Both the position numbers and the translations under genes were made by a program. Of a stretch of DNA of 24,103 nt, positions 4,499 to 14,552 are shown piece by piece; position 1 is the stretch's first letter; the number at the start of each line of letters is the position of its first letter. The stretch lies in IMG/VR virus record IMGVR_UViG_3300037882_003690, positions 1 to 24,103 of that record. One strand, written 5' to 3'. The notes under the pieces were generated by a model that had not been told where the DNA came from, did no database searches, and saw only the letters and a program-made list of their open reading frames with translations. This DNA comes from a virus.

Positions 4499-5008
4499 AT
4501 GGAATTTACAATCGAAACCCCCCGCAAACAGCGCACTATTGGTGGCCACCTCTTATCCGTAATCCAGCCCTTCGCAGATGGCCAGACCTTAACCCCTGCC
4601 ACAGCGGCCATGCTAAACCAAACTTTGGCTGAAAACTTTAGCAATAACATGCGCAAAGCCGTCGACGGCAAAACACAAGACGAGGCACAAGCATTGCTTG
4701 AAACTTACATGTCTGAATACGAACCCGGCGTTCGAACATCAGGCACAGCTGTTGCCCGCACTATCGATCCAGTCGAGCGCGAAGCACGTAAGATTGCCCG
4801 CGAGGAAGCTGTTCGCTTTGTCAAAGCAAGCAACCTGAAAACAACCGATGTTGTAATGCCCGACATTATTGAGCAAGTCTATCTCAACAACATCGAGGCG
4901 CTACACAATCAGGCCAAGACGATTATCAAAGCCAAAACGAAAGCTGCCGAAGGTTCTGCCCTCGTCATGCCCGGTTTGGGACAAACGCCCGAACCAGCTG
5001 CCGCCTAA
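4499..5008 (+). CDS. hypothetical protein, 169 aa
   Basis: Starts at the ATG at 4499. The frame is open upstream to a TTG at 4430, but that extension is unlike the rest and lies in the promoter-like stretch. The protein (MEFTIETPRK...) has a beta-like first 10 residues, then helices with many charged residues, a central helix with EREARKIAREEAVRFVKAS, and an Ala/Pro-rich C terminus (TPEPAAA). No catalytic motif, metal site, signal peptide or membrane segment is visible. The abundance of charged helices suggests a multimeric or scaffold-like protein, but I recognise no family. It is followed by two tandem hairpins, the second a terminator, so it is probably the last gene of its subunit. Confidence 0.6.
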   Translation: MEFTIETPRKQRTIGGHLLSVIQPFADGQTLTPATAAMLNQTLAENFSNNMRKAVDGKTQDEAQALLETYMSEYEPGVRTSGTAVARTIDPVEREARKIAREEAVRFVKASNLKTTDVVMPDIIEQVYLNNIEALHNQAKTIIKAKTKAAEGSALVMPGLGQTPEPAAA

Positions 5009-5015
5009 ACCACAT

Positions 5016-5048
5016 TGGCCGCAGGTTTAATTCCTTTTCCTGCGGCCA
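5016..5048 (+). other. 10-bp hairpin downstream of the 4499 gene
   Basis: TGGCCGCAGG (5016-5025) and CCTGCGGCCA (5039-5048) are perfectly complementary around a 13-nt T-rich loop. It lies directly in front of the terminator at 5051-5095 and is not followed by a T run of its own. It may protect the 3' end of the upstream mRNA or help termination. Confidence 0.55.
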
Positions 5049-5050
5049 TA

Positions 5051-5095
5051 GGGGGTAAGTTTTACTGCAACGGGAAACTTGCCCCCACCTTTTTT
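5051..5095 (+). terminator. Rho-independent terminator
   Basis: GGGGGTAAGTTT (5051-5062) pairs with AAACTTGCCCCC (5075-5086), 12 bp with one G-T wobble, followed closely by six T (5090-5095). It separates the 4499-5008 gene from the operon that begins at 5106 and would end or attenuate transcription from the left. The Shine-Dalgarno of the next gene follows immediately. Confidence 0.7.
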
Positions 5096-5105
5096 AGGAT
5101 TTTTT

Positions 5106-5282
5106 ATGACAGACCCTTATGCTGCCAGAGAGAAACTCTTAGATAGCGTCCGTCAACGCATCCAAATAACACTAACGAAATTCCTGACTGAGCAGCGGCA
5201 CGAGTTAGACAAAATCGATACCACACCTACAGTAGCAAGCCTTATGCAAGAATTTGGAAAGCAGCTGATTGAAAATGACTAA
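5106..5282 (+). CDS. small hypothetical protein, 58 aa
   Basis: ATG at 5106 with AGGA about 7 nt upstream. An in-frame upstream start near 5079 would lie inside the terminator stem and is rejected. The 58 residues are mostly one long amphipathic helix with many Arg, Lys, Glu and Gln (AAREKLLDSVRQRIQITLTKFL), ending QLIEND. It could be a helical adaptor or inhibitor peptide. It overlaps the next gene by 8 nt. No family recognised. Confidence 0.5.
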   Translation: MTDPYAAREKLLDSVRQRIQITLTKFLTEQRHELDKIDTTPTVASLMQEFGKQLIEND

Positions 5283-6927: not shown

Positions 6928-7358
6928 ATGCATACTACGCCCGTTGCGCCGAATACGAACATGATCTAGGTGTTGACCGCTTAGAGCATCGACGTGATCT
7001 AATCCAAGAAGAAAACGATTTTCTAAACAGCTTTTCACCCTCAAAGCGCAAAGCCTACTTGAAAGATCGGGAAATTCGACGGAAAACGCAGCTAAGGCAC
7101 GAACAAGCTGTTTACGACTTAGACAGAGATCTTAAAAAATACCAACCACAGCCTTACGCTTTACACCACCCTTGCGGCCAGTTGCTTCACAGCATCATTG
7201 CCCACAGCATCGGCCTTGCAAACTTCCTGCCAGAATACCGCAAGCAGTTTGTGCCCTTAACTGATGAAAATTGCAATGCTTGGGGCATAACCACAGCCAC
7301 TGCAAGAAACTATTGCAGACAGCAAACACTCCCTTTAACCTTTTACAACATTTGCTAG
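6903..7358 (+). CDS. hypothetical charged helical protein, 151 aa
   Basis: ATG at 6903 overlaps the nuclease gene by 25 nt and has AAAGGAAAAAAG upstream. Residues about 1-80 are rich in Arg, Glu, Asp, Lys and Tyr and look like long helices, possibly coiled coil (RLEHRRDLIQEENDF, KDREIRRKTQLRHEQ). Residues about 85-151 are less charged, contain His and Cys and end in YNIC, with a short segment (NAWGITTATARNYCRQQ) that could be a helix-turn-helix. The position between nuclease and recombinase suggests an accessory recombination or DNA-binding role, but no family is recognised. Confidence 0.55.
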   Translation: MEPATESLNAYYARCAEYEHDLGVDRLEHRRDLIQEENDFLNSFSPSKRKAYLKDREIRRKTQLRHEQAVYDLDRDLKKYQPQPYALHHPCGQLLHSIIAHSIGLANFLPEYRKQFVPLTDENCNAWGITTATARNYCRQQTLPLTFYNIC

Positions 7359-7366
7359 GAACCTTT

Positions 7367-8161
7367 ATGCCCGCATTTTCTGCCCACGAGTCCACTTCTG
7401 TTGTCAAATTACTTCTCGCATCCGACAGCGGCACAGGCAAAACTGGCGCACTATCTTCGCTTATCGATGCTGGTTACAACTTGCGCATCCTAGATTTTGA
7501 TAACGGCCTTAGCGTTCTTAAAGGTTTTGTTAAAGACAAGGCAAAGCTGGATAACGTAACGTATGCCAGCTTGCGTGACGAGTTAAAACTATCCGGCGGG
7601 AAATTCACCATCCACAGGGCAAAGGCTTTCGAGCGGGCTATGGAAATCTTGGACAAAGGCGGCGCAACATGGGGCGCTGGTTGCGAAAACATTCCGCCCC
7701 TAACAAGCTGGACACCTAAAGACATCTTAGTCGTTGATACCCTTAGCATGATGAGCCGCAGTTGCCTGTTCATGGTAATGGCGCTTAACAACGCAACAAC
7801 TAAATCTCCTGAGCTGCAACACTATGGCATGGCAATGGAAAATATTGAACGGCTGGTCAGCCAGCTTACCTCCGAAGCCGTCAATTGTAACGTGATAATT
7901 AACACACACCTTTACACCTCGCGCGATGGCCTAAAGCAATATCCAGAAGCATTGGGCGACAAGCTTGGGCCAAAACTTGGCCGCTACTTTGACAACCTTA
8001 TTACTCTTAGCCTCACCGCAGGTGCGCGCAATTTCAAAACCAAGAAAGACGGGCTAATGGCGTGCAAAACCGCAATACCCCTTTCAGACACTTATCCCAT
8101 AGCGACAGGCTTTGCTGATATATTCAAAGCGTTGCTGTCTGCCCCCGTGGGCGCAACTTAA
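7367..8161 (+). CDS. RecA-fold ATPase, Sak4-like recombinase
   Basis: 264 residues from the ATG at 7367 (CTAGGA upstream); an earlier in-frame start at 7271 would overlap the previous gene and is not needed. Walker A is SDSGTGKT (19-26) with Ser in place of the first Gly. Walker B is ILVVDTLS, with Asp123 as the acidic end. After the Walker A helix comes LRILDFDNGL, typical of the AAA_24/Sak4 group, and NVIINTHLY may act as a sensor strand. Sak4-type proteins are RecA relatives that anneal single strands, stimulated by a cognate SSB. A probable SSB is the next gene and a resecting nuclease lies two genes upstream. The specific Sak4 label is moderate; the P-loop ATPase call is strong. Confidence 0.78.
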   Translation: MPAFSAHESTSVVKLLLASDSGTGKTGALSSLIDAGYNLRILDFDNGLSVLKGFVKDKAKLDNVTYASLRDELKLSGGKFTIHRAKAFERAMEILDKGGATWGAGCENIPPLTSWTPKDILVVDTLSMMSRSCLFMVMALNNATTKSPELQHYGMAMENIERLVSQLTSEAVNCNVIINTHLYTSRDGLKQYPEALGDKLGPKLGRYFDNLITLSLTAGARNFKTKKDGLMACKTAIPLSDTYPIATGFADIFKALLSAPVGAT

Positions 8162-8170
8162 CCCTATTGC

Positions 8171-8326
8171 TTTCCAAGCTGGTAATTGCAAGGCCCTCCT
8201 TTCGCAAGACCTTGCAGGTCTATGCAGAAATCTTGGAAAACCGATCCGCGCTGGCATATCGCGGGAAGCAGTCCCTAAAAGCTGCTTCGCTATATGCCAT
8301 CCACCCACCAGTGGCAACTCTGCCAC
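8171..8326 (+). ncRNA. candidate structured RNA (or structured DNA) leader of the SSB gene
   Basis: The 184 nt between the RecA-like stop (8161) and the SSB-like ATG (8346) contain no credible gene but several strong inverted repeats. P1: TTTCCAAG (8171-8178) with CTTGGAAA (8232-8239), 8 bp; optionally CTG (8179-8181) with CAG (8225-8227) continues it. P2 nested inside: TGCAAGG (8187-8193) with CCTTGCA (8210-8216), 7 bp. P3: 8252-8259 pairs with 8292-8299, then after one C/T mismatch 8261-8262 with 8289-8290, then after a 2-nt bulge GAAGCAG (8265-8271) with CTGCTTC (8282-8288), 17 bp in all around a 10-nt loop. P4: GTGGCA (8311-8316) with TGCCAC (8321-8326), 4-nt loop. P4 ends just before the Shine-Dalgarno-like AAGAAAG. 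It could be a cis-acting leader, a separate small RNA or a single-strand replication origin. Confidence 0.55.
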
Positions 8327-8345
8327 AAGTTAAGAAAGACTTTTT

Positions 8346-8801
8346 ATGTCAAACTCAATGTTCGCCGATCTGGCAAGTGCAAAAACAAACCAAGTGGAAA
8401 AACCACAGCCGATTCCAGTTGGTCACTACACCGCCCGCTTTGCCGGACCGTTTACGCGGCGCGATGCAAACACAGGCAACTACGCCATGCGCTTTCCAAT
8501 TTCTCTAACCGAGGCCCATGACGATGTGGATAGCGAAAAGCTGGCTAAAGCAAAAAAATGGAACGAGCGCAAAATTAACATCGACTTCTGGATGAATGTT
8601 GAAGCGCAATATCGCTTTACAGAGTTTGCCCAAGCCTTAGGCCTTGATACTACGTCCGACGAGGCCACCATCCTAAGCATCGCAGAACAGCTGATCGAAA
8701 ATATGCCTGAATTCATGGTGGAAATCGGACACCGTGCTGACGACAAAGACCCGTCAGTCCTCTACACCGAAGTGCTAAATTACACCGCACTTCCAGCATA
8801 A
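8346..8801 (+). CDS. probable single-stranded DNA-binding protein (DUF669-like)
   Basis: 151 residues. After a polar lead, VGHYTARFAGPFTRRDANTG (25-44) and NYAMRFPISL look like the first strands of an OB fold. Next come a charged helix-loop (SEKLAKAKKW), another strand pair (INIDFWMN), a helical part with FAQALGLDTT, and a last pair of strands with FMVEIGHRA (about 124-132) and YTEVLNYTAL. This order resembles DUF669/phage SSB-like proteins encoded beside annealases. I do not see the acidic C-terminal tip of bacterial SSBs; the protein ends in YTALPA. It follows the Sak4-like gene, which fits the known cooperation of Sak4 with its SSB. It is preceded by the structured element at 8171-8326, which may control its translation. 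Confidence 0.55.
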   Translation: MSNSMFADLASAKTNQVEKPQPIPVGHYTARFAGPFTRRDANTGNYAMRFPISLTEAHDDVDSEKLAKAKKWNERKINIDFWMNVEAQYRFTEFAQALGLDTTSDEATILSIAEQLIENMPEFMVEIGHRADDKDPSVLYTEVLNYTALPA

Positions 8802-8807
8802 CTTTGA

Positions 8808-8843
8808 CAAGGCGGGGGTAGGCAAAAACCTATTCCTGCCTTG
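8808..8843 (+). other. 15-bp RNA hairpin upstream of the ParB-methyltransferase gene
   Basis: 8808-8822 (CAAGGCGGGGGTAGG) pairs with 8829-8843 (CCTATTCCTGCCTTG) along 15 bp with three G-U wobbles and a 6-nt A-rich loop. The wobbles pair only in plus-strand RNA (they are A/C mismatches in the opposite strand), which suggests function as rightward transcript. No T run follows, so it is not a standard terminator. It may separate or regulate expression of the SSB-like and methyltransferase genes. Confidence 0.6.
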
Positions 8844-8875
8844 CAATGTCTGCCACTTGCCGCTAGGAAACCTCC

Positions 8876-10312
8876 ATGCAAATTCAGCTAAACGATTCGT
8901 CCCCTATCGTAAACTTCCCTATTGCAGATATAAAAATAACACCAGAACGCCAACGCAAACAAGCAGCGCCTGACGACATGCTAATCGAAAGCATCCGCAC
9001 ATCAGGTCTTCTCCAGCCTATAATCATAAAAGAAGATGGCACGCTGATCGCAGGCGAGCGCCGATACCTCGCTCACCGTCAGCTTGGCCGCGAAACAATT
9101 CTTGCTCGGATATTCGAGAAACTTTCTCCAGTAAACGCTTTCCTTGTCGAGCTCCATGAAAACCTTGCCCGCAAGCAGCTGACTTGGCAGGAAGAAACAA
9201 AAGCGGTAGGCAGCTTTCACAACTTGCAAGCTGTTGCTAAAAAAGGCTGGCTGATAAAAGAAACAGCTGAACTTATTGGTTTGTCCCAGACAAAAACTGG
9301 ACAATATCTTGCCATCCACAAAGAGGCTCAGATTGACGAAGAAATCTATCGTTGCGGCACAATGCAAGCCGCAGTTAACTACCTTGAAAACAAAGCCTTG
9401 CGCAATATTGCTGCAGCTACGTCTCGCGGCCTGCTTGCTGAAAAAGTAATTCGGGCGGTTCATGGTGATCCCAGCCTCACCACCGCTGCCCTGCTATCTA
9501 GCATACAAAACAAGACCTTGGCACAACTTGGCGACGAAACTATGCCAAGCATTCTTGAGCAGGGAAAACTCGCCGAGACCTTGCTGCAAAATGCAAAGAA
9601 AGAGCAGCAGCCTGTAACTAACTTGGGAAAAAACGAAGCTATCTGTGCGAATTTTACCGACTGGGCAGCTGGCTACACCGGCCCTTCTTTTGACGTGATC
9701 CACTGCGACTTTCCCTACGGCAAAAACTACACCGGATCAAATACCAGCCCCGCAGCCATCTTACAAAAGAACGAAGTATATGCGGACACTGCCGACATCT
9801 TCAAAAACTTGCTTTTTGCTTTCCTCTTACAGCAAGACCGCTTTGTCGCACCTATTGCTCATTGCCTCTTCTGGTTTGACATGTCCTACTACTCCTACAC
9901 TATAGCGCAATTCGAAGCTGCGGGCTGGACAACCGTTCAACCCTTCCCACTTATCTGGACAAAAGGTTATAGCGGAGTAGCTGCCGACACCAAGCGCCGT
10001 CCGCGCCATTGCTACGAGACTGCTTTGCTTTTTTCACGAGGGGATAGAAAGATTGTCAAACTAACCAATGACCATTTCTCTTGCAATTCTAAGGAAGAAA
10101 ACCTGCACACAAGTCAAAAACCTGTCCCTATGCTCGAACACTTTTTGCAGCTCCTTATCGACGAGCACACCAATTTTCTTGATCCCACTTGTGGCAGCGG
10201 AAGCTCCCTAGTCGCCGCCCGCAAGCTAAACGCGGCCAGCTTTCTCGGCATTGAGCTGGAACAAACAAATGCAGACATTGCTAATTTCCTCCTGCAGAAA
10301 AAAGCCGCATAA
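8876..10312 (+). CDS. ParB-domain / DNA methyltransferase fusion
   Basis: 478 residues, AGGAAA upstream of the ATG. N-terminal ParB/Srx-like domain: SGLLQPIIIKEDGTLIAGER begins at 43 and runs into RYLAHRQLG, then ELHENLARKQLTWQEE (92-107) and a helix-turn-helix-like segment (IKETAELIGLSQTKTGQYL, 127-145). From about 255 a beta-class amino-methyltransferase follows: motif IV HCDFPYG (276-282), QKPVPMLEH (414-422) and the AdoMet-binding FLDPTCGSGS (434-443). Motif IV reads DFPY rather than DPPY. Such enzymes methylate adenine N6 or cytosine N4 using AdoMet. The ParB part probably gives DNA targeting, or NTP-dependent clamping as in some ParB proteins. A likely role is marking phage DNA against host restriction or for regulation. 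No matching restriction enzyme lies beside it. Confidence 0.85.
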   Translation: MQIQLNDSSPIVNFPIADIKITPERQRKQAAPDDMLIESIRTSGLLQPIIIKEDGTLIAGERRYLAHRQLGRETILARIFEKLSPVNAFLVELHENLARKQLTWQEETKAVGSFHNLQAVAKKGWLIKETAELIGLSQTKTGQYLAIHKEAQIDEEIYRCGTMQAAVNYLENKALRNIAAATSRGLLAEKVIRAVHGDPSLTTAALLSSIQNKTLAQLGDETMPSILEQGKLAETLLQNAKKEQQPVTNLGKNEAICANFTDWAAGYTGPSFDVIHCDFPYGKNYTGSNTSPAAILQKNEVYADTADIFKNLLFAFLLQQDRFVAPIAHCLFWFDMSYYSYTIAQFEAAGWTTVQPFPLIWTKGYSGVAADTKRRPRHCYETALLFSRGDRKIVKLTNDHFSCNSKEENLHTSQKPVPMLEHFLQLLIDEHTNFLDPTCGSGSSLVAARKLNAASFLGIELEQTNADIANFLLQKKAA

Positions 10313-10314
10313 CT

Positions 10315-11370
10315 ATGTTTTGCGAACCAGAACAACCCCGCAAAGACGGGCAGAAAGTTTTGCTATTATCTGACGCCCCGACTGACACCGACTTAGTTGA
10401 AAACAGGCTGCACTCAGACCACGCGGGGCATTTGCTAAAGCATGAGATAATACTTGCAAAAGATTTTGACATATCCAGCTGCTACTATGGAAGCATCCTA
10501 TCCCAGCCGCTGCCTTACGGGGGCCTCACCTCTTGCACCGTTACAAAGACGGAAATGAAAAAGCTAGGCCACGAACTTCTTGGCAACCCTATAAACAAAC
10601 GCTATTTACTGCCAGCTTATCGGCAGGACGTGGCCGCAGCTCTTGCCGCTATTCAAAAACTTGCCCCGAACCTTATCATCGCACTTGGCAGCCTACCCTT
10701 ATGGGCAATCACAGGCGAAAGCCGCATAACCATGTTTCGCGGCAACTTTATGGAAACTGCTTATGGAATGGCAATAGCCACTCACGCACCATTATCTGTC
10801 CATAAAGAGTATAACCTGCGCCCCTTTGTCTGGGCCGATCTTGCAAAGGCTGAAAAATACCTGAACAAAACTCTGCCTCCAAACGTCGCCCGCAGAGCCT
10901 ACATAAATCCTACATGGGCCGAGCTTCAGGCAGTTTACACCCACTTTCTTGCAAACCCGACAGCCCTACTCGGCGTCGATATTGAAACCGCACCTAGCAT
11001 TGGTCAGATAACTTGTATCGGATTTGCAACAGAAAGTCTAGGTATTTGCCTACCCTTTTGGAACAAGGCAAACGGCAAGCCTTTTAACCCAACACCTGAG
11101 GCAGAGCTGCGCATGTGGCGCTGGGCCGAAAAGTTTGCCAACCTTCCGAACCCTAAAGTAATGCAAAACGGATTATACGATATGCAATACTTGCTGGACG
11201 CCCCTATTCCCATCCGTTGCCGCAACGTAACTGATGACACCGCAATTCTCCAGCACGCTCTCCAACCGGAAATGCTAAAGAGCCTCGGCACTCTTTCCAG
11301 CTTCTACCTTAACGAGCCAAGCTGGAAGCAAATGCGCGAGTCCGACAAAGAAAGCAAAAAGGACGATTAA
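10315..11370 (+). CDS. N-terminal part of a split family A DNA polymerase: UDG-like plus 3'-5' exonuclease (Exo I-II)
   Basis: 351 residues. Residues about 14-180 resemble a uracil-DNA-glycosylase-fold domain found at the N terminus of SPO1-type phage polymerases: VLLLSDAPTDTD (15-26), PNLIIALGSLPLWAITG (118-134), FRGNF (141-145) and THAPLSVHK (156-164). From about 215 comes a DEDD exonuclease: Exo I LLGVDIETA (Asp222, Glu224) and Exo II VMQNGLYDMQYL (Asp289), followed by LKSLGTLSSFYL. It then ends in a lysine/aspartate-rich tail. The third exonuclease motif (Y-x3-D) and the whole polymerase domain are in the next gene, one base downstream. Whether the UDG-like domain keeps glycosylase activity cannot be judged; the catalytic region looks diverged. 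Start: ATG 3 nt after the methyltransferase stop, required to include the first UDG motif. Confidence 0.82.
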   Translation: MFCEPEQPRKDGQKVLLLSDAPTDTDLVENRLHSDHAGHLLKHEIILAKDFDISSCYYGSILSQPLPYGGLTSCTVTKTEMKKLGHELLGNPINKRYLLPAYRQDVAAALAAIQKLAPNLIIALGSLPLWAITGESRITMFRGNFMETAYGMAIATHAPLSVHKEYNLRPFVWADLAKAEKYLNKTLPPNVARRAYINPTWAELQAVYTHFLANPTALLGVDIETAPSIGQITCIGFATESLGICLPFWNKANGKPFNPTPEAELRMWRWAEKFANLPNPKVMQNGLYDMQYLLDAPIPIRCRNVTDDTAILQHALQPEMLKSLGTLSSFYLNEPSWKQMRESDKESKKDD

Positions 11371-11371
11371 C

Positions 11372-12856
11372 ATGCCTTACATAGATTTTACAGGGGAAGC
11401 CCCCGCCCGCCCCGATCCGTTTGAAACTTACCAGCTATACAACTTGCTGGACTGCTTCATAACTGCGCAACTTGTGCCACCAATGCGCAGCCAGCTTGAC
11501 GAAAGCACAGCCGCAGTCTATCAGAGGGAAATGCGTGTCCAGCAACTTTGCCTTGAAATGTCCTCAACAGGGTTTCCAATAAACAAAGAAGCCGTTGCCG
11601 AATTAACCTTCTCCCTTACCAAGAACATCAACAAGGCCACCAATCGCCTTACGCAATGGTGCGAAGCCGTCGGCTATCCCGCGCTCAACGAGAACTCGCC
11701 TAAGCAGGTTGCCGACTTTTTCTACAGCTTTCTAAAACTACCTCCCATTAACAAATGGGATTTCGCTACTCGCAGCCGCAAGATTGTAACCGATGCAAAA
11801 GCCCTTGAGTCTCTTGCCTCCAGCTATATAATCGCCGCACCCTTTGTCAACGCTATTCTAAGCATTCGAGAAAGCCGAAAGATGCTTTCCGTGTTTAACC
11901 GAGGACTGGAACCAAACGGCAACCTGCGTTGCACATTCAGCCCTTCTGGCACAGATACCGGGAGGCTTAGCTCGCAATCCAACCCTTACAAACGCGGGAC
12001 AAACGCGCAAAACATTACCGACTACCTCCGCCATGTTATTGAAGCCCCTCCAGGTTTCCTAATCCTAAACTTTGATCTTAAAACAGCCGAAAGTATCGCA
12101 GTCGGCTTTCTATCCCAAAGTCCCAAATACATCGATGCCTGCTATTCAGGTGATATCCACACCTACGCTGCAAAGGAAGTCTGGCCGAAACAGCCTTGGA
12201 CTGGAGACTTGCGCCTAGACAAAGCAATAGCAGAAAATCCCTGCTATCGCCATTTCTCTTTTCGCGACCTCGCCAAAAGGGGCGGGCATGGCACCAACTA
12301 CTATGGCAAGCCTCCTAATGTTGCAAAGCACCTTGGCGTGCCGACACCTCTTGTTGCCGACTTTCAAGCCAGCTATTTTGCAGCTTTTCCTGAAATACCA
12401 ACTTGGCACTTGCGCGTAATAGCTGAAATCCAAACAACAGGTCAGCTAACCACACCGCTTGCCCGCAAGCGCACTTTCTGGGGCCGATCTGGCGATGCCA
12501 GCACCCACCGCAAAGCTATTGCGTTTGGGCCACAATCCCTTGTCGCAGACACTTGGAACGAGGCGCTATACATTGCGCAAATGTGGCTGGTTGCCAACTA
12601 CCCTTCTATCCGTCTCTTAGCACAAGTCCACGACTCAGGCGTGTTTCTATTCCCAAAGCAACTCGTCCACAGCGTAGTTCCACTTTTACAAAAGCAATTA
12701 GAATACCCTATTGACTTTGGAAAACTAGGGGTTATGACCATCCCTACTGACGTCACCATAGGCCGCACTTGGAACAAGCTCCCAAAAGGCAATGCACCAA
12801 AACACCTCGCAGGTGGACAACGCCCTTACATTGCTGGAATGGATCTTAATTTGTGA
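11372..12856 (+). CDS. C-terminal part of a split family A DNA polymerase: Exo III motif plus polymerase domain
   Basis: 494 residues in a frame +1 to the preceding gene. The Exo III motif is YNLLDCFIT (Tyr23, Asp27), matching YAAED of E. coli Pol I. Polymerase motif A is NFDLKTAE (Asp235, Glu240). Motif B is RDLAKRGGHGTNYYG (Arg298, Lys302, Tyr310), with His306 where Pol I has Phe762. Motif C is QVHDS (His420, Asp421). Both catalytic aspartates are present, so it should be an active polymerase. A strong Shine-Dalgarno AAGGA (11359-11363) lies 8 nt before the ATG, inside the end of the previous gene, with only 1 nt between TAA and ATG. That supports separate, coupled translation and a two-subunit enzyme over a sequencing error. 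Substrate: template-directed dNTP addition for phage genome replication. Confidence 0.92.
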   Translation: MPYIDFTGEAPARPDPFETYQLYNLLDCFITAQLVPPMRSQLDESTAAVYQREMRVQQLCLEMSSTGFPINKEAVAELTFSLTKNINKATNRLTQWCEAVGYPALNENSPKQVADFFYSFLKLPPINKWDFATRSRKIVTDAKALESLASSYIIAAPFVNAILSIRESRKMLSVFNRGLEPNGNLRCTFSPSGTDTGRLSSQSNPYKRGTNAQNITDYLRHVIEAPPGFLILNFDLKTAESIAVGFLSQSPKYIDACYSGDIHTYAAKEVWPKQPWTGDLRLDKAIAENPCYRHFSFRDLAKRGGHGTNYYGKPPNVAKHLGVPTPLVADFQASYFAAFPEIPTWHLRVIAEIQTTGQLTTPLARKRTFWGRSGDASTHRKAIAFGPQSLVADTWNEALYIAQMWLVANYPSIRLLAQVHDSGVFLFPKQLVHSVVPLLQKQLEYPIDFGKLGVMTIPTDVTIGRTWNKLPKGNAPKHLAGGQRPYIAGMDLNL

Positions 12857-14519: not shown

Positions 14520-14552
14520 GTGTATTACAATCCATAATCCAAATTGTAACAC
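14520..14552. promoter_or_regulatory. inverted-repeat operator-like element, copy 2 (inverted)
   Basis: GTGTATTACAAT (14520-14531) and ATTGTAACAC (14543-14552) form an imperfect dyad with one or two extra bases in the left arm. Read on the minus strand it starts GTGTTACAAT and ends TATGGATTGTAATACAC, closely matching the plus-strand element at 1905-1935 (GTGTTACATT...TATGGATTGTAACAC). It lies between the last leftward gene and the bidirectional terminator. TACAAT, a 5/6 match to a -10 box, occurs once on each strand inside it, but I see no good -35 on either side. It could be an operator, a protein-loaded boundary or a recombination site. Confidence 0.5.

Follow-up and report, generated by a model that had tools for sequence, protein, structure and literature searches.

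The THF-II riboswitch consists of two stems, P1 and P2, with a conserved asymmetric internal loop; the right shoulder of its P1 contains the ribosome site (PMC6800512). In phage T4, the operator of gene 43 is an 18-nt hairpin with a conserved UAAC loop, and that of gene 32 combines A+U-rich repeats with a pseudoknot, which lies some 67 nt before the start (PMC3014915). The STAXI motif, a tandemly repeated pseudoknot, is found near ssb and DNA-handling genes (PMC2864571). At the level of genes, Sak4 adjoining a DUF669-type single-strand binding protein (SSB) is a known pair, as exemplified by phage HK620 (PMC5928155).

The gap analysed here is flanked by the same gene pair as that of HK620 Sak4 and its cognate SSB, the description of which in PMC5928155 deals with the proteins. 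It occupies positions 8162-8345 (184 nt) of virus record IMGVR_UViG_3300037882_003690, which is apparently a fragment of a virus genome and whose whole length of 24,103 bases is referred to below as the window. The features bordering the gap are:

7367-8161, + strand: upstream gene (sak4), Sak4-like single-strand annealing protein (PHROG 124, E 1e-15)
8346-8801, + strand: downstream gene (ssb), DUF669-like single-strand binding protein with an OB-fold-like model
8804-8846, + strand: hairpin directly after ssb, separate from the conserved motif (z -3.3)

The ssb product gave a confident fold from a 60-sequence alignment (pLDDT 94), and the best solved matches of this model were PrgE, PriB and SsbA, which are OB-fold single-strand binders; its match to Pfam DUF669 (E 0.006) was below the cut-off. 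A ParB-methyltransferase fusion and then a DNA polymerase follow 3' of ssb. The fusion is a single open reading frame (ORF; 8876-10312) with a ParB N-terminal domain and a DNA methyltransferase, and is conserved family-wide. DNA polymerase A is encoded in two adjacent ORFs (10315-11370 and 11372-12856), both matching PHROG 17, and in several relatives the matches to its two parts lie at separate places.

Searches with Sak4, SSB or one polymerase half as the sole query gave no relatives; these were recovered by a helicase search and later by multi-sequence alignments. The helicase search, together with Caulobacter phage Kuura as one named phage, supplied nine loci that share the gene order, and further relatives came from Sak4 and ParB alignments. 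The length of the sak4-ssb gap in the relatives varies from an overlap to more than 1,000 nt, and small ORFs are often present inside it, which marks the gap as a variable spot.

The four stems that the earlier note had read from this gap were all confirmed, coordinates included:

8171-8178, + strand: 5' strand of P1 (P1a), UUUCCAAG, paired with 8232-8239
8187-8193, + strand: 5' strand of P2, UGCAAGG, paired with 8210-8216
8210-8216, + strand: 3' strand of P2, CCUUGCA, paired with 8187-8193
8232-8239, + strand: 3' strand of P1 (P1a), CUUGGAAA, paired with 8171-8178
8252-8299, + strand: P3, a long irregular hairpin outside the conserved motif (pair probability about 1.0)
8311-8326, + strand: P4, a 6-bp hairpin GUGGCA-ACUC-UGCCAC ending 19 nt before the ssb start (pair probability about 1.0)

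The gap also proved to be devoid of a credible gene, as had been proposed: its ORFs had no match in Pfam, and the one tested had none in PHROG. A decayed small gene was rejected, there being no translated similarity to relatives, and no tRNA was found in the gap. The folding energy of the gap was -58.0 kcal/mol, as compared with a mean of -45.3 for dinucleotide shuffles (z -3.42), none of which (0/200) was as stable; the fold statistics of the minus strand were similar (z -3.20). When 399 positions of the window were scanned with segments of 184 nt, positions 8161 and 8221 were among the 12 most structured ones, and higher scores were obtained for the ssb-parB gap (8761, z -5.6) and for a gap near 4981 (z -4.9). 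The gap is thus more structured than shuffled sequences, but hairpin-bearing gaps are not unique in the window. The most structured gap tested was that at 5009-5106 (z -6.6), which contains two strong hairpins and, behind the second of them, a run of T.

The low folding energy of the sak4-ssb gap is due to P3 and P4, since positions 8241-8345 alone gave a z of -4.07, whereas positions 8162-8240 alone gave -0.93, which is not significant. Both hairpins are stable and lie outside the conserved motif. On energy alone, neither P1 (pair probability about 0.15-0.4) nor P2 (about 0.05-0.1) is the preferred fold; that they are real is indicated by the comparison with other phages, not by energy. Most of the last 19 nt ahead of the ssb start is unpaired, and this stretch is rich in A and U. 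P4-like stems were seen at the same place in 4/5 close relatives, each with a chance of 0.11-0.20 and noticed after the fact. A hairpin 18-20 nt before ssb was rejected as a family-wide feature, being present in 18% of 72 other relatives versus 12% expected; there was no excess of pairing at that position in the family, nor any general structure upstream of ssb across it, and within the clade of the window itself (5/6) such a hairpin is a weak pattern, noticed after the fact.

When the gap was compared with all loci by short words, L330, L331 and L324 proved to share 17-22 nt with it. An exact 17-nt core, AGGUCWAUGCAGAAAUC, is shared by the window and these three loci, and a second block, UGGUAAUU, stands upstream of it at a similar distance in all four; the core of the window (AGGUCUAUGCAGAAAUC) is letter-for-letter identical to that of L331. 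Further copies were found in L374 and L318 by relaxed searches, and in L386 and L363 by the covariance model. The parts of the motif in the window are:

8171-8239 (69 nt), + strand: whole motif, P1 - internal loop - P2; eight copies of this conserved RNA are known
8179-8181, + strand: 5' strand of P1b, CUG, paired with CAG at 8225-8227
8182-8186, + strand: 5' side of the internal loop, GUAAU, invariant except for GGAAU in L363
8217-8224, + strand: 3' side of the internal loop, GGUCUAUG, facing GUAAU, conserved
8225-8227, + strand: 3' strand of P1b, CAG, paired with 8179-8181
8228-8231, + strand: AAAU bulge separating P1b from P1a, found in 5/8 copies (AAAA in L374)

The window motif starts 9 nt after the sak4 stop, and its P1a is 8 bp long. 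The core of the asymmetric internal loop, UG-GUAAU / GGUCWAUG-CA, is nearly invariant, the 3' side reading GGUCWAUG in six copies and GGUUG in L386 and L363. Around it, the outermost P1b pair is C-G in the window, A-U in L374 and G-C in L318, and the first variable P2 pair is G-C or A-U. We also observed that GCAUA in P3 (8254-8258) is complementary to UAUGC of the core (8221-8225), a pairing that would exclude both the loop and P3; as an alternative structure this five-pair match is speculative and is no evidence by itself.

When checked for covariation across phages, as the earlier note had suggested, both P1 and P2 passed. When six copies were aligned with plain MAFFT, 92% of the cells were paired and 12/16 pairs had changed on both sides. 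The covariation score of these copies was 0.700, versus 0.187 for shuffled ones and at most 0.150 for slid controls, and no measure was reached by more than 1/500 shuffles. With all eight copies aligned to the model, an alignment that leans towards structure, 95.9% of the cells were paired. P1a itself had changes on both sides in 7/8 pairs across phages. With no more than eight copies known, and with shuffle tests inflated by the relatedness of the sequences, the firmest single result is that of the leave-one-out search: model R3, made from five copies with the window left out, found the window copy with 58.8 bits and an E of 3.5e-15, and also found L386 (E 1.4e-10) and, weakly, L363 (E 0.006), all of these E-values being rough.

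The lengths of the copies (58-80 nt) differ by amounts that are not divisible by three, and the motif is therefore not coding. Read as + strand RNA, its pairs comprise 113 Watson-Crick, 5 G-U and 1 A-C pair; the excess of G-U over A-C pairs (5 vs 1, a small count) favours RNA of the + strand. A partial match to the core (AGGUCAAUGCAGACAUC; E 0.008-0.04) is located on the minus strand of L317 (929-968), within an apparent coding region and without the 5' loop; it may be a chance match or a fragment.

A search of Rfam 15 gave no match above the gathering cut-off, only matches far below it, and region 8100-8900 of the window had none at E 5. With no Rfam match and with stems that covary across phages, the description of the gap as an undescribed structured element is supported. 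Judging from the sequence comparisons, the motif at 8171-8239 is a real structured RNA that is absent from Rfam.

In the seven other phages, all of them uncultured, the motif is located 3' of ssb and starts within about 100 nt of the ssb stop. The gene after it is a small 'YLYS...GW...TYTSD' gene just before parB in five phages, a 57-aa cysteine-rich ORF in L374, and a 94-aa ORF in L318. Small YLYS...GW...TYTSD proteins encoded between ssb and parB have 19 members, including those of L318, L324, L330, L331, L361, L374 and L386, and no match to this small gene was found in isolated phages. P1 is longer in the seven phages, and its 3' strand continues into the Shine-Dalgarno sequence of the next gene, which it covers fully in L324, L330, L331 and L386, and partially in L318, L363 and L374. 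The distance from the motif end to the AUG is 15-38 nt in these relatives, and the mean probability of their Shine-Dalgarno sequences being unpaired is 0.03-0.47 (about 0.46 in L318 and L374), versus 0.80 in the window. There, P3 and P4 stand between the motif and ssb, and the short P1 has no contact with the ribosome site:

8332-8338, + strand: Shine-Dalgarno-like AAGAAAG of the window ssb, not masked by the motif (mean probability unpaired 0.80)

The window phage and the other bearers of the motif are far apart in the ParB tree. Close relatives of the window (L083, L313-L315) have ssb, and the motif is absent from their whole records. As the same core is present in otherwise very different phages, the motif appears either to be mobile between genomes or to be very strongly constrained.

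The motif came to light when the comparison was extended from one phage gap to its relatives, and the covariance model together with the eight sequences makes it searchable. In phage sets drawn by similarity of the flanking genes, no further secure copy was found in the family loci (by the model), in all 397 loci (by the pattern), or in about 120 whole virus records. The motif was not found by the model in 385 alphaproteobacterial genomes or as an exact pattern in 398 + 396 genomes of two phyla (794), and searches of isolated phages and plasmids by DNA similarity gave chance-level matches or none.

The likeness of the motif to the THF-II riboswitch (folE motif, RF02977) lies in the two stems, the asymmetric conserved loop and the small size. 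A ribosome site within the right shoulder of P1, as in THF-II, is present in 7/8 copies, but not in that of the window. However, the RF02977 model gave no match at E 10 in the records of L331, L324, L374, L318, L386 and L363, and THF-II is located upstream of folE in Rhizobiales chromosomes, whereas the phage motif precedes small ORFs or ssb. By analogy, the phage motif might at most work in a THF-II-like manner; it would not be a member of the THF-II class. With the operators of T4 genes 32 and 43 it shares the position of a structured leader before a phage DNA-replication gene, but it is composed of two stems and an internal loop, and mostly precedes small genes of unknown function. STAXI resembles it as a structured element near ssb and DNA-handling genes; this candidate was rejected, as there are no repeats in the gap and no Rfam match.

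Taken together, the 8171-8239 RNA is probably a structured cis-acting leader of phages. Its fixed internal loop would recognise a ligand or a protein, and the forming or opening of P1 would switch translation of the following gene off or on. The window copy presumably would act on the sak4-ssb message via P3/P4 or message stability, or may have lost its output; that it masks no ribosome site speaks against the leader function. The P1 of the relatives is very long, beyond the need of most switches, and may be always closed or be opened by processing. Among the roles suggested in the earlier note, that of a cis-acting leader is the best supported, but the regulation by SSB of its own translation is not supported: seven phages have the RNA 3' of ssb, with P1 reaching into the next gene's ribosome site, and the closest relatives of the window carry ssb without the motif.

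Two special cases of such a leader differ in what the loop would bind. It could be a phage protein (the polymerase, the ParB-methyltransferase, SSB or the small downstream product) that represses translation, and we consider a translational operator of this kind rather unlikely. Operators of this sort are known for phage replication proteins, T4 gp32 and gp43 acting on their own messages (PMC3014915), and phages of the family encode such proteins; however, most of them have the same proteins and no such RNA, and the motif is not tied to one downstream gene. Alternatively, the loop of an orphan riboswitch would bind a small molecule such as a nucleotide or a modified base, and stabilise P1. The same layout in THF-II (PMC6800512) and the conservation of the core among phages widely separated in the ParB tree are in line with this. 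A metabolic gene downstream is absent, though, and to be unseen in the searched bacterial genomes is unusual for a riboswitch, which leaves this second case with a low likelihood as well. The genes downstream of the motif differ (YLYS-type, cysteine-rich ORF, 94-aa ORF, ssb) and give no clue to the ligand. A new phage-borne class of orphan riboswitches, in which the loop would sense a small molecule made or depleted in infection and gate genes of the replication module, including that of SSB, is possible but doubtful. Loops of this kind usually bind something specific, so that the trigger would reveal a signal sensed by the phage or the protein with which it times genes of the replication region.

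Outside the leader reading, P3 and P4 would fit well with generic intercistronic hairpins, which would act without specific recognition as processing or stability barriers setting unequal levels of Sak4 and SSB. Such hairpins are common in gaps of these phages, and two covarying ones precede ssb in another clade, but they leave the nearly invariant internal loop of distant phages unexplained, and we regard them as an unlikely explanation. It is similarly improbable that the window copy is a relic or a passenger that was captured with neighbouring DNA and cut off from a ribosome site. Its gap differs from that of all other copies, its P1 is short and L083 and L313-L315 lack it, whereas its identity to the L331 core and its two intact stems indicate that it is under selection or was recently acquired. 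Least probable, and in our view very unlikely, are a self-cleaving ribozyme, a trans-acting small RNA and a single-strand origin acting at the DNA level, even though fixed internal loops between two stems are known in ribozymes and a DNA hairpin is possible in principle. No Rfam ribozyme was matched; no sigma-70-like promoter site, the one type searched for, was found in region 7300-9000; the G-U pairs fit + strand RNA rather than the origin that the earlier note had listed; and the overlap with a ribosome site in 7/8 copies points to a leader.

Structure is also present elsewhere around these genes. On the + strand of region 7300-9000, no terminator-like site (a G+C-rich hairpin with a U run) was found. 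In 126 relatives, the 80 nt after ssb had a mean z of -2.23, versus about -0.2 to -0.5 in coding controls (p about 3e-26), and the hairpin after ssb in other family members is often terminator-like. Both the sak4-ssb gene pair and the hairpin after ssb are ordinary features of the region. In L102, L107, L097, L134 and about 20 more loci, two tandem hairpins occupy the last 60 nt before ssb, the first overlapping the sak4 stop codon and the second usually having a UCAC loop. With 8 pairs changed on both sides and 0/500 shuffles reaching this, they form a covarying leader element; its identity with the window element was rejected, as model R1 had no match in the window. Finally, two similar palindromes, at 1905-1935 (GTGTTACA...TGTAACAC) and 14522-14552 (GTATTACA...TGTAACAC), are located close to either end of the block of + strand genes and are operator-like.
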